A program made the translations under genes and the position numbers. Under the pieces are notes generated by a model, which had not been told where the DNA came from, made no database searches, and saw only the letters and a list, made by a program, of their open reading frames with translations. A DNA stretch of 39,370 nt from a virus. The DNA lies in the IMG/VR virus record IMGVR_UViG_3300048837_002250, positions 1 to 39,370 of that record. One strand, given 5' to 3'. Within the stretch, counting starts at the first letter, position 1. Every line of letters starts with the position of its first letter. This document shows positions 1-24,635 of this stretch, in pieces.

Positions 1-2793
1 GGCCGAGAAGAAGAGCTTGCACGTCCGATGATCGACAGGTGGCGGCAAGCTCCGATTCTTCAAGGCGCGATCTTTCACACGACGCTCAAGGGCATCCACA
101 TCATCCAGCCTCTTCAGTCCCCCATCCCGATCGGTGGAGCCCTTAGCTCCTACAGATGGTGGCTGGACATGATTCGCGAGGCCGGAGTGGAGTGGGATAA
201 GGCGACTGCCAAGGAAGTCGGACGGCTTTGGCGCATGCCTCGTGTGCGTCGCTCGCACAACGGCAAGATGATTGACTACAAGCCGAGCGTCCTGCTGCTC
301 GACGATGCCGTTCCACTCAAACTGCCAGCACGTCTCGCCGGTGCACCCGCGCAGCAGTCAGCCGGGACAGCCTCCGTCGCCCAATCGTCGTTGAGCGCTC
401 CACGCAAGACTGCGCGCATCCAACGTGCCGAACTTGGCGCTCAGCAAGTTCCCGATGTCGGCGAACCATGGTGCTTTCGCGCCAAGATCATCGCGGCTGC
501 CTGCAAGAGCGAGCCGCACGAGTGGCACCGCATGTTCATGCACCTAGCAGGCGCCCTTCTCGAGAAAGGGGCGCCGGCGAGCCGTCTCGTCGCCATATGC
601 CGCGCGATCTCCATCGAAACCGGAGCTGATGACCGCATCGCAGACCGCGAGCAGAGCGCGAAGACGACGCTGGATCGGATGCGTCTCGGAAACCCGGTGG
701 GTGGCTACCAAGGCCTTCTCAAGGAGTGGCGCAGCGTTGCACTCGCCTTGGAGGAGTCGTTCAGCATCCGCACCCAGGAGGACTTCGAACGGTACAATAC
801 CCCGACTGCGACCAAGTCGGCCCTCTCCGGAGCGGAAGTGAGTGCTCTGATTCGTGAGCAGATGCCCAAGGACGGCGACGGCGTAACCGCCTATCAGGTT
901 GGAGCAGGTGTGGGAAAGTCCGCCGCTGCGATCGACGAGGGTGCGTCCCGCGCGAGAGGGGTCGCTCGTTCTGCGAGCGGAAGGGCGCCGCGTGGCTCCA
1001 AGACCGCGTACTCGGTGGATAAGCATGAACTCGCCAAGCAGTACCAGCGTGACCTTGCCGCCAAGGGGATCGAAGCCAAACGGCTCTTCAGCCCGCTCAC
1101 CGTACTGCAGGACGACGGCACACCTGAGTGCATCCACCACGACAAAGCCAGCCATCTGGTCGAGGGCGGGCTTTCCATGCAGTGGGAACTCTGTCGTGGG
1201 CGCGACACTGAACGCTGCGAACGCTATGAAACTTGCCGCGCGCGCCTCGGGTTCGATGGACCCGAAGACGCCCTCATCACGATTGGTACGCACGCCCGAA
1301 TCGAGGCGTTGGCCGAGGAAGCGGGCTCGACGGGCACGCTCTACGCGGACGAGCCACCGTCGGTGTTCGAGAAGCACGTCATCAGCCCGGCTGAGCTGAA
1401 GATCGCGGTGGATTCGTTGCATGACTTTACTGTGCGCTTTGAATGCGCAATGCGGCCCGCACTTGAAGCCCTTCGCGCATGGCATCACTGCGAGATTCCG
1501 GGCCCACCGCGAGCGCCCGTCGACGTCGTGCGGGAGTACGGACACCAGGTGAGCGCAGCCGACATCCACTACGCGCAAGCACAAACGGGCGTCGAGAGCC
1601 GCGACCCGGTGGACTTTGCCGCGGCGGCTCTGGCACCCGACGAGCACCACGGCCGAGGGCAACTTCCTCTGCGACCCATCGGACGCCACATGGCCATCAT
1701 GAGCGTCACCCACGCAGCGCGCATCGGACAGGCCGCACGCACTCTGGGGGCCGTGCACCGTGCGCTCACCTCGACCCTACCAGGCGCCGCAATCTGGCTC
1801 GAGGAGTCAGGAAGTGATGCCGGTTCGATCGTTCTCTACCAACCGCGCGACAGCTACATCCAGGCTCTGCGCAGGCAGGGAAAGACGATCCTTCTCGACG
1901 CCAATGCCTCCTCGAGTGTCCCTCTGCTCGCACCACTGCTCGGCTACGAGCCCGTGGTCCGTCGCTTCGAGGCAACGGACGGTGCCCGCATCGAGCGCAC
2001 TTGGCGAATGGCGCCCGGCGCCAACCGTTCCGGGTGGTTCGACGGGCAACTTCCCGTGCCCTGTGACTCGCTCCTGCACGCGATTCACGCGGCGCTCGAA
2101 TGGGCGCACAACCTCGGCACAGCAAGGCCACTTGCAATCATAACCATGCGCGCCATCGAGCTCGGGTTGCGCCTCGCGCATCGGCCTGGCGACGAAGAGG
2201 CTATGCAGGCCTGGAGCCGCCTCAAGCCGCCGCCAAAGCTCCTCGAGCGCTTCCAGACCGAGTTCGGCCCGGCTCTCAAGGCGCGCTCCGGAGCGCTCCT
2301 TTGGGGCCACTACGGGGCCATCAAGGGCCTCAATCACATGGCTGACGTCGACGCCATCCTCACCATTGGCGACCCCTGGCCAAACGTCATGTGCGCCGAG
2401 CACGAGGCCAAGTTCGCTGCGCTCGATCAGACCGGCCGCGCGCGCGGAGAGCAGCTCTGCAAGGATGAGCTCGAGCAAGCGCATGGCCGTCTTCGCACCG
2501 TGCACCGCACGCGCCCTGGCTGGGCGCTGCACGTAGGCGCCGTGCGCCCAGGCGGCACAGCGTGGCTCTCCGAGGTGCAAGTGGTCCAGGCCGCGGGACG
2601 ACCCGTCAACGCCCGCGTGCTCACGCCCGACGAGATCAAACAGGCAGTCGACCAACTCGGTGGCGCCCGTGCCGCCGGGAAGTTCCTCCAATGCTCTGAG
2701 CGCACCGTACGCCGGTATGTGACGGGAGACCGAGCACCCGACGCAGCCATCGTCGAAGCGCTCCTACCACTCGTGCGTTGGCGCGCCGCGTAG
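1..2793 (+). CDS. Primase-helicase, N-terminus outside the window
   Basis: The frame is open from base 1, so the first ATG (28) is probably internal and the gene starts upstream. The first ~100 residues resemble the end of an archaeo-eukaryotic type primase domain, followed by a helical PriCT-like segment (about nt 460-760). A P-loop, GAGVGKS, lies at nt 901-921. After it come four cysteines (ECIHH at about nt 1129, then WELCRG, RCERYETC at about nt 1187-1232), then a THAR motif, a Walker B-like YADEPP at about nt 1342, and a late QAHGRLRT motif (about nt 2476) that could carry an arginine finger. The last ~40 residues look like a helix-turn-helix (CSERTVRRY). Inferred role: replication initiation, priming and unwinding of phage DNA. 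The cysteine cluster between Walker A and B resembles those of iron-sulfur or zinc-bearing helicases. It ends before a long non-coding gap that may be the origin. The product could instead be a plasmid-type primase-helicase. Confidence 0.75.
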   Translation, partial: GREEELARPMIDRWRQAPILQGAIFHTTLKGIHIIQPLQSPIPIGGALSSYRWWLDMIREAGVEWDKATAKEVGRLWRMPRVRRSHNGKMIDYKPSVLLLDDAVPLKLPARLAGAPAQQSAGTASVAQSSLSAPRKTARIQRAELGAQQVPDVGEPWCFRAKIIAAACKSEPHEWHRMFMHLAGALLEKGAPASRLVAICRAISIETGADDRIADREQSAKTTLDRMRLGNPVGGYQGLLKEWRSVALALEESFSIRTQEDFERYNTPTATKSALSGAEVSALIREQMPKDGDGVTAYQVGAGVGKSAAAIDEGASRARGVARSASGRAPRGSKTAYSVDKHELAKQYQRDLAAKGIEAKRLFSPLTVLQDDGTPECIHHDKASHLVEGGLSMQWELCRGRDTERCERYETCRARLGFDGPEDALITIGTHARIEALAEEAGSTGTLYADEPPSVFEKHVISPAELKIAVDSLHDFTVRFECAMRPALEALRAWHHCEIPGPPRAPVDVVREYGHQVSAADIHYAQAQTGVESRDPVDFAAAALAPDEHHGRGQLPLRPIGRHMAIMSVTHAARIGQAARTLGAVHRALTSTLPGAAIWLEESGSDAGSIVLYQPRDSYIQALRRQGKTILLDANASSSVPLLAPLLGYEPVVRRFEATDGARIERTWRMAPGANRSGWFDGQLPVPCDSLLHAIHAALEWAHNLGTARPLAIITMRAIELGLRLAHRPGDEEAMQAWSRLKPPPKLLERFQTEFGPALKARSGALLWGHYGAIKGLNHMADVDAILTIGDPWPNVMCAEHEAKFAALDQTGRARGEQLCKDELEQAHGRLRTVHRTRPGWALHVGAVRPGGTAWLSEVQVVQAAGRPVNARVLTPDEIKQAVDQLGGARAAGKFLQCSERTVRRYVTGDRAPDAAIVEALLPLVRWRAA

Positions 2794-14008: not shown

Positions 14009-15295
14009 TTGGCCACGCCTGCTGTCGAACGCGCACGCGCCCTGTTGACGCGCCTGCCGCTGCCAGTTGAGAAGACTCTCTTCGCGTCGCCCGCGGGGAA
14101 GAAGCGGCTTGCAAAGCGCCTCGTGGCAATGCTCCCCGCGCACGGTACTTACGTCGAGCCCTTTGCTGGGTCCGCTGCTGTGCTCTTCGCGAAGGAGCCC
14201 GCTGCACAGGAAGTCATCAGCGATGCCGATGCGGAGATTGCCGAGGCGTACAAGATTCTCAAGCGCCTCAAGCCCGAGGATATCCAGAAGCTGAACAAGC
14301 TCGACTGGCGCGGCGACAAGGCGACGTACGACAGGCTCAAGAAGATCGCGCCAACCAGTGACGTCGCGAAGCTGCACAAGTTCCTCTACTTGTCGCACTT
14401 CAGTTACGGCAAGATGCGCGGAAAGAGCTTCAGCCCGACTGCGCAGGGGGTCGAAGCGCAGATGCCTGCGCGCCTTGAGAAGCATCTGTCCCGCCTCAAG
14501 AACGTGCGCGTCTTCAGCGGAGACTACGAGCCCGTGGTGCGGAAGTTCGATGGTAAGGATACCGTCTTCTTTCTCGACCCTCCTTACACTGGCTATGACG
14601 TCAACGTCGGCGAGAAGAAGTTCGACGAGCAGCGCTTCTTCAAGATGCTGAAGTCGCTCAAGGGCAAGTTCCTCATCACCTACGGGATCCGCGGTGAGCT
14701 GCCGAAGCTCGTCAAGGACGCCGGCTTCGTGGTGAAGCAGATTCGCGTGCCCCGCACGATCGCCTCCATGCGTGGTGTCGGCGGGCCGAGCGTGCTCACG
14801 CAACTTCTGGTGTCGAACTACGACATCGCGCAAAAGGCGTATGGACCGGATGCTGACGACCTGGAGATGGTCGACTGGCCCTCCCAGGACGCGCACCGAG
14901 ATGCGTTCGCGACCACCTCCACGTTGATCAAGGGGATTGACCCCGGTGACGAGCGCTTCGTGCTCGGCGTAGTCCTAGAACCGGAGGTCGTGGATGCGCA
15001 GGGAGACATCTACTCCGCCGAGGAGATTCGCAGCGCGGCCCATCGCTTCATGGAGGACTTCCAGGGCCTTGGGCTTCAGCACCGAGAGCGCGTCAACGGC
15101 GACGTGAAGATCCTCGAGAGCTACTTGGCGCCGGATGACCTGAGCGTTGGTGGCACCGCGATCAAGAAGGGGACGTGGCTCTTCGGCGTGCGCGTGTTGT
15201 CTGATGAGCTGTGGAGCATGGTGAAGGACGGCGCCTTGTCGGGCTTCAGTATCGGCGGTACGGCGCGCAAAGTCCCTGAATCGAGCGCGGCGTAG
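14009..15295 (+). CDS. DNA adenine methylase fused to XkdF-like prohead protease
   Basis: A 428-residue protein. No ATG precedes the conserved N-terminus, so I take TTG 14009, with CGAGG about 8 bases upstream. Residues ~29-285 are a class D12 (Dam-type) N6-adenine methyltransferase: YVEPFAGSAAV (AdoMet site, 48-58) and DPPY at 190-193 (catalytic motif IV). Residues ~305-425 match the PBSX XkdF putative serine protease: FVLGVVLEPEVVDAQGD, LQHRER with His358, KKGTWLFGVRV and SGFSIGG with Ser414, the likely catalytic His and Ser. The protease normally matures the prohead, and here it sits where that gene is expected, before scaffold and capsid. One open frame covers both, with no stop or frameshift. 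A 192-base AT-richer gap precedes it and may hold a promoter. Confidence 0.85.
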   Translation: MATPAVERARALLTRLPLPVEKTLFASPAGKKRLAKRLVAMLPAHGTYVEPFAGSAAVLFAKEPAAQEVISDADAEIAEAYKILKRLKPEDIQKLNKLDWRGDKATYDRLKKIAPTSDVAKLHKFLYLSHFSYGKMRGKSFSPTAQGVEAQMPARLEKHLSRLKNVRVFSGDYEPVVRKFDGKDTVFFLDPPYTGYDVNVGEKKFDEQRFFKMLKSLKGKFLITYGIRGELPKLVKDAGFVVKQIRVPRTIASMRGVGGPSVLTQLLVSNYDIAQKAYGPDADDLEMVDWPSQDAHRDAFATTSTLIKGIDPGDERFVLGVVLEPEVVDAQGDIYSAEEIRSAAHRFMEDFQGLGLQHRERVNGDVKILESYLAPDDLSVGGTAIKKGTWLFGVRVLSDELWSMVKDGALSGFSIGGTARKVPESSAA

Positions 15296-19504: not shown

Positions 19505-20104
19505 GTGCCCGTCAAGCGCACGGGCGATTGGCAGCTCGCACGCGAGCTACTCCGGGGAGCACCCGCGCGACTCAAGGCCGCCACCGACCGCGCGCTCCGG
19601 CAGGAGGCGGAGCAATTGCGCAGCGAGGTGGTCGAGGGCATCACGAAGCAAGCGCCCGCCGGACAAGCCTTCAGCCCCCTCGCTCGCTTCACGGTCGCCA
19701 AGCGACGATTGCGCAAGTTCTCAGGCTCCAAGGCGCTCATTCAGAACGCGGACCTGCGCAATGCGATCACCGCCACGGTGAAGAACGGCGAGGCCTTCGT
19801 CGGCGTACCTCGCAAGGCCAGGGGGCGAGACGGCTCTCAGCTCGCGGACGTAGCGAAGCTCAACGAGTTCGGCAGCGACCCCATCATCATCCCGGTCACG
19901 CCCAAGATGCGCAGGTTCCTGCACGTGCTCAGGCGTGAAGCGGGGGACGCACCACCTGCTGCAGGCGGCACATCGACGCCAGGCGTGATTGTCACCCGCA
20001 TCCCCGCGCGGCCGTTTCTGCGGCCCGTGTTCGACAAGTTTCGCCGCGACGCCGGCAAGCGCTTTCTCAGCCGCGTCGCAGCCCAGTGGAAGGTCCTCGG
20101 ATAG
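19505..20104 (+). CDS. Tail completion / virion morphogenesis protein
   Basis: A 199-residue protein; I choose GTG 19505 since the preceding gene ends at 19500 and a longer frame from 19415 would overlap it. The N-terminal helices (QLARELLRGAPARLKAATDRALRQEAEQLRSEVV) and the C-terminal motif IPARPFLRPVFDKFRRD fit the Mu gpG / HK97 gp10-like group that completes tails. KLNEFGSDPI is also typical of gp10-like 'E.G....IPARPF' architecture. Expected role: joining neck to tail or capping the tail tube. Its ribosome binding site is weak. Confidence 0.7.
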   Translation: MPVKRTGDWQLARELLRGAPARLKAATDRALRQEAEQLRSEVVEGITKQAPAGQAFSPLARFTVAKRRLRKFSGSKALIQNADLRNAITATVKNGEAFVGVPRKARGRDGSQLADVAKLNEFGSDPIIIPVTPKMRRFLHVLRREAGDAPPAAGGTSTPGVIVTRIPARPFLRPVFDKFRRDAGKRFLSRVAAQWKVLG

Positions 20105-20108
20105 GCAC

Positions 20109-21011
20109 ATGGCAACACCGAACCTCATTCGCATCTCGCAAGACCGCGGTCCAACCTCCGGCGGCGACCTTGTGCGGCTCAACGGAACCGACTTCAGCGA
20201 CCGCGTTGCCGTTTGGTTCGGTGGGGCCGAGGCCGACGTCCAGCGCGTCGTACGCATCTCAAGCACAGCGTTCGTAGACGTACGCACCCCGGCTCACGTT
20301 CCTGCGCTCGTCGATGTCGTGGTGTGGAACCTCGATGCCGACGGACTCCCGATCGCAGGCGAGCGCTCGACGCTCACTCAGGCCTATCGCTACCTTCGCA
20401 CGCCGCTGACGAGCGAAGCCACGCTCACGCGTGTCGTACGTGCGATGCTGCAGGCGCTCAAGCGCGACGTGCTCGACAACACCACTATTACGGTCTCGGT
20501 CGACTACCAGGAGCCTGTCGATGATGAAGGCGCTGCAGCGGTCGTCGCGCGTGTACCGTCGCTTGTGCTCTCGGGCCCGACGCTGCGTGAGAACCGCTTC
20601 TATCGAACCGTCGAGCCGAAGGAAGAGGTCGTGCTCGGGGAGCATGGTCCGGAGCTCCGCAAGCGTCGACCTCCCTTTACGGCGGACCTTACGTTCACCA
20701 TCACGGGCACAAGCGCGAGCACCATCGAGCTCTTGAATCTGATGAGCGCGGTGGTCACCTTCATCTCGCGCAACCGTTGGCTTTCCGTACCTCGAGACCC
20801 CGAGGACCCGAGTGCACTCGTCCGGTGGGAGCTTCATCCCGATGGCGAGATGCGCACCAAGCTTGCGTCGGGCGATGGCACCCGCGCATTCACGGCGCAG
20901 GTGATCGTGCGCGGCGTGGACATCGAAGAGGGCCTGCCGCTCTCGCTCACCAAGACTGTCGAAAGCACGTCGGTGCTCGCCGAGTCGCTGCGTTTTGAGG
21001 CGAGCGCATGA
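20109..21011 (+). CDS. Tail protein with N-terminal IPT/TIG (Ig-like) domain
   Basis: A 300-residue protein from ATG 20109; an upstream ATG at 19989 would overlap the preceding gene by 116 bases. Residues ~5-95 are an IPT/TIG immunoglobulin-like domain: ISQDRGPTSGGDLVRLNGTDF, VWFGGAEADVQRV, DVRTPAHVPALVDVVVWN. The rest (about 100-300) is beta-rich with no motif I know, including FTADLTFTITGTSAS. Position between tail completion and sheath suggests a tail terminator or neck collar protein. Ig-like domains on virions are often sugar-binding. The stop overlaps the next start (ATGA). Confidence 0.65.
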   Translation: MATPNLIRISQDRGPTSGGDLVRLNGTDFSDRVAVWFGGAEADVQRVVRISSTAFVDVRTPAHVPALVDVVVWNLDADGLPIAGERSTLTQAYRYLRTPLTSEATLTRVVRAMLQALKRDVLDNTTITVSVDYQEPVDDEGAAAVVARVPSLVLSGPTLRENRFYRTVEPKEEVVLGEHGPELRKRRPPFTADLTFTITGTSASTIELLNLMSAVVTFISRNRWLSVPRDPEDPSALVRWELHPDGEMRTKLASGDGTRAFTAQVIVRGVDIEEGLPLSLTKTVESTSVLAESLRFEASA

Positions 21012-23462: not shown

Positions 23463-23525
23463 CGCGCCAGCTTCGAACTCCCTTCGTTCCATTTCTCCAC
23501 CTTACCAGGTGGGCAGGAGGTTTGT

Positions 23526-24635
23526 GTGCGTTTCAACGTGATGAAGAAGGCGCGCGGCATGATGTGCGCGTTCTGGCTGTTTCTATTCCGACAGTGGACC
23601 CTGTGCCGCACGTGCGATGCGTGTTGGGATGGCCCCTCGCCCAGTCCCGAACCGTCTTCACCGCATCCGAATCCATCAAGACCTCCGAAGCTGCGCGTGG
23701 TGCCCGCGTTCGAAGAGAGGCCCTCTCTCTCGAAGGGTAAGGACACAGCCCCTACGTCGTTGAAGCAAACTGTTCGCAAGCCTCTTGCCACGCTGGTCGC
23801 AACGCTGAGCGGCATTATCGACTGGAGTAAGCAGCTCTCCATGCGCACGCTGCTCGAGAAGATCGATTCGCCGATCTTCCTGAAGTCGCTCTCGACCTCC
23901 GGCGTCGTACGCTTTGCCCTTTGGCAACGCATCGACTCAGCGCCTCCCACCACTTGGGAGCAGCGCCCCAAGGACTCCGACCAAGAAGTCGACGCGAATC
24001 AGGGTGTGCCCATCGAGGTGATGATCGAAGTCGCAAATCAAACCGGGCTCGATCCCTGGTTCTGTATGCCCCACTGGGCCGATGACGCCTACGTCAAGAG
24101 CTTCGCAGAGCTCGTGAAAGGTAAGCTCGATCCCGAGCGGGTCGTGTACCTCGAGCACTCGAACGACGTCGCCAACAGCGAGCTTCCCCAGCATCACTAC
24201 CTGCGGGCCATGGCACGTTCCTCGGTCGCTCAGTTTGGAGAGGACTGCGTAGGCGCGGCGATCAAGTGTCACGCGGCGCGCTCGCTCGATATCTTCCGAA
24301 TCTGGCGCGAGGTGTTCGAAGATCGCGAACGGGTAGTCGGCGTTCTTGGCGCGAGTGCTGCGGAGCAGAAAACCCTCAGCGATATCTTCAGCCTCGAGGC
24401 GGTTCGCGAGTCGGTCGACGCAGTAGTGCTCGCTCCCGTCATAGAAGGCGTGGTCGGCGAAGTCGCGGATGCCCTTGTCGCTGTAGCGGCGCCCATCGAG
24501 ACGATGTCTGAAGTCGTAGGCGATGCTGTTACTGCGCTGGCCTCCATGGTGAGCGACGCAGCCAAGGTCGTAACCTCCTGCGACAAGCGCCTGTTCGTGT
24601 GCAGTGTCGAGACGGCATTGCAAGAACCGGAGTGA
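23526..24635 (+). CDS. Glycoside-hydrolase-like protein between sheath and tube
   Basis: A 369-residue protein starting at GTG 23526, five bases after AGGAGG. Residues 1-35 contain a hydrophobic, cysteine-rich segment ([16 protein letters not shown]), then a proline-rich linker. Residues ~105-285 resemble a bacterial carbohydrate-active family I recall as cellulose-binding/GH-like: [53 protein letters not shown], and [11 protein letters not shown]. In that family the motif is usually EYSNEVWN; here it reads LEHSNDVAN (Glu210, Asp214), so a possible catalytic Glu is replaced. The C-terminal ~80 residues are hydrophobic helices. It could degrade or bind host exopolysaccharide, or be a non-enzymatic tail part. 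Sheath-tube is an unusual place for such a gene. Confidence 0.6.

Follow-up and report, generated by a model that had tools for sequence, protein, structure and literature searches.

Gene order and local signals at the sheath–tube junction

The window, i.e., the whole stretch of DNA analysed here (39,370 nt of virus record IMGVR_UViG_3300048837_002250), carries terminase, portal and head genes upstream of its tail genes. The tail tube gene is followed by a T4-type baseplate gene and by tape measure, hub and baseplate J genes. Since head and tail genes occur together in a virus record, the window is part of the genome of a contractile-tailed phage. An ORF of 369 codons with a GTG start is found on the + strand between the tail sheath and tail tube genes (Table 1), and its stop codon lies 3 bases upstream of the tail tube ATG. 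A first-pass annotation had placed a 369-residue protein between sheath and tube. The ORF is present, both neighbours are identified by PHROG and Pfam matches, and all the peptides quoted in that annotation are found in the translation.

The inserted gene has its own Shine-Dalgarno sequence, whereas the GGAG within its last codons is likely the ribosome-binding site of the tail tube gene. The tight spacing between this GGAG and the tube ATG suggests coupled translation of insert and tube. No promoter or terminator of the inserted gene was found on the + strand around it; this and the GGAG in its last codons suggest transcription of the insert along with the late tail genes.

Table 1. Features of the inserted gene, its neighbours and related loci. 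Locations are positions in the window unless a contig is named.
Feature	Location	Strand	Basis
Tail sheath, 736 aa	21252..23462	+	phrog_23 4e-39, phrog_17610 1.5e-62, phrog_15814 1e-221; PF17482 weak
Shine-Dalgarno AGGAGG of inserted gene, 5 nt before GTG	23515..23520	+	sequence; identical AGGAGG in sister phage
Predicted pseudo-glycosidase-like gene, 369 aa	23526..24635	+	sequence; sister copy 78% identical
Residues 1-34: basic start, a stretch of 11 hydrophobic residues, CxxCxxC	23526..23627	+	sequence
Residues 36-84: Pro/Ser-rich linker, low model confidence	23631..23777	+	model, dN
Residues 89-105: candidate strand 1, joined directly to strand 2	23790..23840	+	weak profile match
Residues 113-356: barrel strands 2-7	23862..24593	+	family profile 200 bits; pLDDT mostly >80
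Asp214, replacing Glu of SNE (predicted acid/base)	24165..24167	+	Glu in 62/62 homologues, Asp in both phages
Ser360, replacing Glu of YEGG (predicted nucleophile)	24603..24605	+	YEGG in 62/62 homologues, Ser in both phages
GGAG within last codons of insert, 6 nt before tube ATG	24629..24632	+	sequence
Tail tube (T4 gp19-type), 153 aa	24639..25100	+	PF06841 5e-32; phrog_4542 3e-36
HNH-endonuclease-like gene, sheath–tube junction	L178:807-1487	-	by eye
Group II intron reverse-transcriptase-like ORF, tube–baseplate junction	L097:11104-12840		by eye
MFS-transporter-like ORF, tube–baseplate junction	L096:3853-5121		by eye
Intact family member in phage contig	L104:7425-8978		
Intact family member in phage contig	L134:7479-8972		

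Elsewhere in the window, a TIG-domain protein (PF01833, phrog_16236; 19989-21011) is encoded upstream of the sheath and is conserved in relatives. A 428-aa fusion (14009-15295) joins a D12 class adenine DNA methyltransferase (PF02086) to an XkdF-type head maturation protease (PF14550); phrog_13242 matches its full length, and no record in the phage collection covers 80% of it by tblastn. The 921-aa ORF at the start of the window (28-2793) has no PHROG match and no significant Pfam match.

Occurrence of the insertion in related tail modules

Sheath and tube genes had been described in the first-pass annotation as normally adjacent, and this is true of the relatives compared. Both genes were readable in 15 related tail modules, some of them near-identical, found in viral contigs and Myxococcota genomes, and in these no more than about 18 nt separates sheath from tube. 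One exception is the sister phage IMGVR_UViG_3300048838_001812, in which a homologue with 78% identity occupies the same position. The other is a related Myxococcota element (L178), whose junction holds a gene that looks HNH-endonuclease-like on visual inspection of its Cys/His motifs. The tube–baseplate junction of relatives carries other cargo, identified by eye as a group II intron protein and an MFS transporter. The HNH-like gene of L178 and this other cargo indicate that the sheath–tube junction tolerates insertions, and since sheath and tube are adjacent in most relatives, the 369-aa gene is accessory, a moron-like addition to the tail operon in one small lineage.

Sheath relatives with E values below 1e-60 were found in 12 of 377 sampled Myxococcota genomes, as well as in viral contigs. 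Their presence in these genomes points to Myxococcota as hosts, and the phage probably infects myxobacteria-like bacteria of this phylum. In the known-phage collection, no homologue of the 369-aa protein was found even at an E value of 1, and literature searches returned no report of a gene arrangement like this one.

An unnamed cellular family of glycoside-hydrolase-like proteins

A profile search for carbohydrate-active families, which the first-pass annotation had proposed as a check, returned no Pfam or NCBIfam match to the 369-aa protein, not even a weak one at an E limit of 10. PHROGs gave no significant match, and a search of the PDB with the single sequence gave nothing significant. 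Residues ~113-356 are nevertheless homologous to a widespread bacterial family, mostly at 27-45% identity (tblastn, E down to 5e-47 among fetched loci). The plasmid collection contributed 25 records in tblastn with the phage protein (E to 1e-30, the best being 1e-29 to 1e-30), and scans of genomes and viral contigs yielded at least 570 confirmed homologous stretches. Of the glycoside-hydrolase- and cellulose-binding-like core suggested earlier, the first part stands as homology to a glycoside-hydrolase-like TIM-barrel family, while the cellulose-binding part is unsupported by any search.

Members of this family are mostly 500-600 residues long, some with RTX or cadherin-like additions, and occur in Planctomycetota, Alphaproteobacteria, Cyanobacteriota, Myxococcota, Verrucomicrobiota and other groups. 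A class-level search with the phage protein found the family in 44 of 240 sampled Myxococcota genomes. Examples are WP_306035508.1 of Shinella zoogloeoides, WP_322346294.1 of Sulfitobacter and a planctomycete protein (L012). Several cellular homologues adjoin exopolysaccharide biosynthesis or glycosyltransferase genes. The family core has no Pfam match and no PDB relative by sequence, including a search with the family profile, and NCBIfam does not know the family either. A large cellular GH-A-like family of ~500 aa, often beside exopolysaccharide genes, thus lacks a name in general family libraries.

The planctomycete homologue L012 is modelled (pLDDT 91.7, pTM 0.87) as a TIM barrel whose first two strands are separated by a beta domain. 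Its strongest match among solved structures is to GH51 arabinofuranosidases (Z 25.3 over 305 residues, 3.1 A), followed by matches to a bacterial heparanase of GH79 (Z 24.0) and to GH39 (Z 21.5), all of which belong to clan GH-A. Enzymes of this clan have Asn-Glu at the end of strand 4, where the Glu is the acid/base, and a second Glu, the nucleophile, at the end of strand 7. All 62 aligned homologues carry SNE after strand 4 and YEGG after strand 7. Patterns built from the SNE motif and a DPWF motif had been used in the contig scans, and 22 homologues found without motif patterns in the plasmid and genome searches were therefore checked separately; E-x-SNE and YEGG were each present in 21 of them. 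From this conservation and the fold, we infer that the Glu of SNE (acid/base) and the Glu of YEGG (nucleophile) form the catalytic pair.

Degeneration of the phage protein

The model of the 369-aa protein has pLDDT values mostly above 80 across residues 110-360, whereas the part preceding residue 96 is of low confidence. Foldseek with this model alone gave no match below an E value of 0.001 in the PDB or BFVD, and the fold becomes clear only through a second look with VIA-align and through the cellular model. With VIA-align, phage residues 89-369 match target residues 22-327 of a GH51 barrel (Z 13.2; 237 residues), and a GH79 match follows at Z 12.7. As modelled, the likeness to GH51 and GH79 would be one of fold only. 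The TIM-barrel-like fold anticipated in the first-pass annotation is predicted in the cellular homologue and, in the phage protein, for strands 2-7, which are well predicted. Strand 1 is weak and strand 8 is absent.

MAFFT aligned the N-terminus of the phage protein to unrelated columns, so the strand 1 call rests on a separate profile test, in which one of 3000 shuffles and one of 197 decoys scored equally well. The VIA alignments to GH51 likewise begin at residue 89. At the other end, the profile alignment extends to L356, and Ser360, which lies beyond that end, is placed by aligning the YEGG of the family with CSVE in the phage protein. The protein terminates 9 residues past Ser360. The beta-domain insert of the family, some 120 residues long, is missing as well.

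The change from EYSNE to EHSND reported earlier is real. The clan GH-A acid/base Glu after Asn is absent from the phage protein, which has SND instead, and the strand-7 nucleophile Glu is absent, with Ser360 at its place. The earlier suggestion that the changed Glu argues for a loss of cutting is strengthened, as the phage protein also lacks the other predicted catalytic Glu and the final barrel strand. Further invariant or near-invariant positions are changed, namely the W of SNEVWN (A216), an F (L220), a Y (V305) and the N of the strand-2 motif (D137). The family residues R129, N171, W178, P182, H183, E210, N213, N217 and Q222 are kept. An active glycoside hydrolase cutting host exopolysaccharide would agree with a family fold shared with clan GH-A enzymes, and Asp can stand in for Glu in rare enzymes. 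However, both predicted catalytic Glu residues are absent, each phage has Ser where the nucleophile would be, and strand 8 is missing, so continued activity is very unlikely. Judged from its sequence, the 369-aa protein is a pseudo-glycosidase, a degenerate derivative of the cellular family. Its branch in a quick tree is very long (1.88 changes per site), as might be seen after a change of function.

Selection on the inserted gene

Comparison of the two phages gives a dS of about 1.0 for the 369-aa gene, a value shared by the sheath and other neighbours. The dN/dS ratio is 0.15 over the whole gene and ~0.06 over core residues 113-280, the latter at the level of the sheath (0.063). Constraint is looser at the C-terminus (dN 0.17) and loosest over the N-terminal 84 residues (dN 0.30). 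A homologue in the sister phage and a low dN/dS show that the gene is no chance ORF, and a core ratio of ~0.06 with a dS like that of its neighbours indicates that it was already present, and functional, in the common ancestor. The core has thus been kept by strong purifying selection, even though the usual retaining mechanism is impossible. A decaying remnant without function would account for a protein shorter than all its homologues and for the very long branch. It is nevertheless most improbable and largely refuted by dN/dS, as the frame has stayed open in two phages at a dS of ~1 with a core dN/dS of ~0.06.

Selection alone leaves the function of the protein unspecified. The degenerate barrel might be a structural or protein-binding part without sugar binding, such as a tail assembly factor, a sheath or tube accessory or a decoration protein. 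A location flanked by sheath and tube, in what appears to be a single transcription unit, would suit such a part, as would a conserved core in which cleft-type residues are replaced and strand 8 is lost. However, the 369-aa gene is missing from relatives whose sheath, tube and baseplate genes are clearly homologous. Tail assembly in general thus does not require it, and a structural role seems unlikely, though it is a serious rival to glycan binding.

Possible function of the pseudo-glycosidase

The reading that we tentatively favour, at somewhat less than an even chance, is that of a domesticated, catalytically dead clan GH-A-like barrel, made with the late tail genes, which acts as a putative non-catalytic binder of host surface or matrix polysaccharide. 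The 369-aa protein would be made late, jointly with sheath and tube, and its barrel (strands 2-7, probably with strand 1), devoid of the beta-domain insert and of strand 8, would stand behind a Cys-containing N-terminus, serving as a tether, and a Pro-rich linker. The pseudo-barrel could then bind polysaccharide either as a lectin-like adsorption helper or as a protein retained at the cell surface. Three points suggest glycan binding. Most of the glycosidase-like barrel is kept, the gene position of family members ties them to surface polysaccharides, and a phage that adsorbs to hosts covered in polysaccharide would have an obvious use for such a binder. The location of several cellular homologues in polysaccharide biosynthesis loci makes a role towards host exopolysaccharide plausible. 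Against glycan binding, the family residues at positions N137, W216 and Y305, which likely line the cleft, are replaced, and this may reduce binding. In the model, the barrel would be incomplete without strand 8 unless oligomerised.

The N-terminus could also send the protein elsewhere. Residues 1-34, for which no relative was found outside the sister phage, possibly form a short signal or anchor. Such a basic and hydrophobic segment might serve a protein that acts in or on the infected cell, e.g., in superinfection exclusion or surface modification, encoded by a moron merely located in the tail operon. The variable cargo seen by eye at the sheath–tube and tube–baseplate junctions (HNH nuclease, group II intron protein, MFS transporter) fits this explanation, but the gene has no detected promoter or terminator of its own and the hydrophobic stretch is only 11 residues long. 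An intracellular or envelope role is likewise unlikely, yet also a serious rival to glycan binding.

A fuller history for the putative polysaccharide binder would have the phage lineage capture a host-type matrix glycosidase that was then stripped of its catalytic pair, insert domain and final strand, the truncated pseudo-barrel now being a putative sugar-binding part co-produced with the contractile tail; taken as a whole, this is doubtful. If true, an enzyme would have been turned into a receptor- or matrix-binding module. A tail operon that maintains, under strong selection, a glycosidase fold without either catalytic residue would offer a clear natural example of an enzyme converted into a binder.

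Comparison with known systems

Phages are known for active depolymerases. PslG-type matrix glycosidases, which belong to GH39, offer an analogy, as the fold matches of the cellular model include GH39 enzymes. The PslG-type enzyme is a glycosidase of the Psl exopolysaccharide system (PMC11912335). This tie resembles that of several cellular homologues by gene position. The PslG-type enzyme differs in being active, and it is taken here as an analogue, not as a demonstrated member of the same family.

The best structural matches of both the cellular and the phage models are GH51 arabinofuranosidases and the GH79 heparanase and beta-glucuronidase group. Identity to the present family is about 10%, and no PDB sequence-profile match links them. 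The C-terminal beta-sandwich domain of GH51 and GH79 is absent here, and their catalytic pair is missing from the phage protein. Strand 8, E-x-SNE, YEGG and the beta domain that follows strand 1 distinguish cellular family members from the phage protein. Intact members of the same family are also encoded in two other phage contigs, one with head-tail adaptor and major head genes (L104) and one with DNA polymerase and ribonucleotide reductase genes (L134). In contrast to the 369-aa protein, these are full length, contain both motifs and lie outside a contractile-tail operon in the regions examined.
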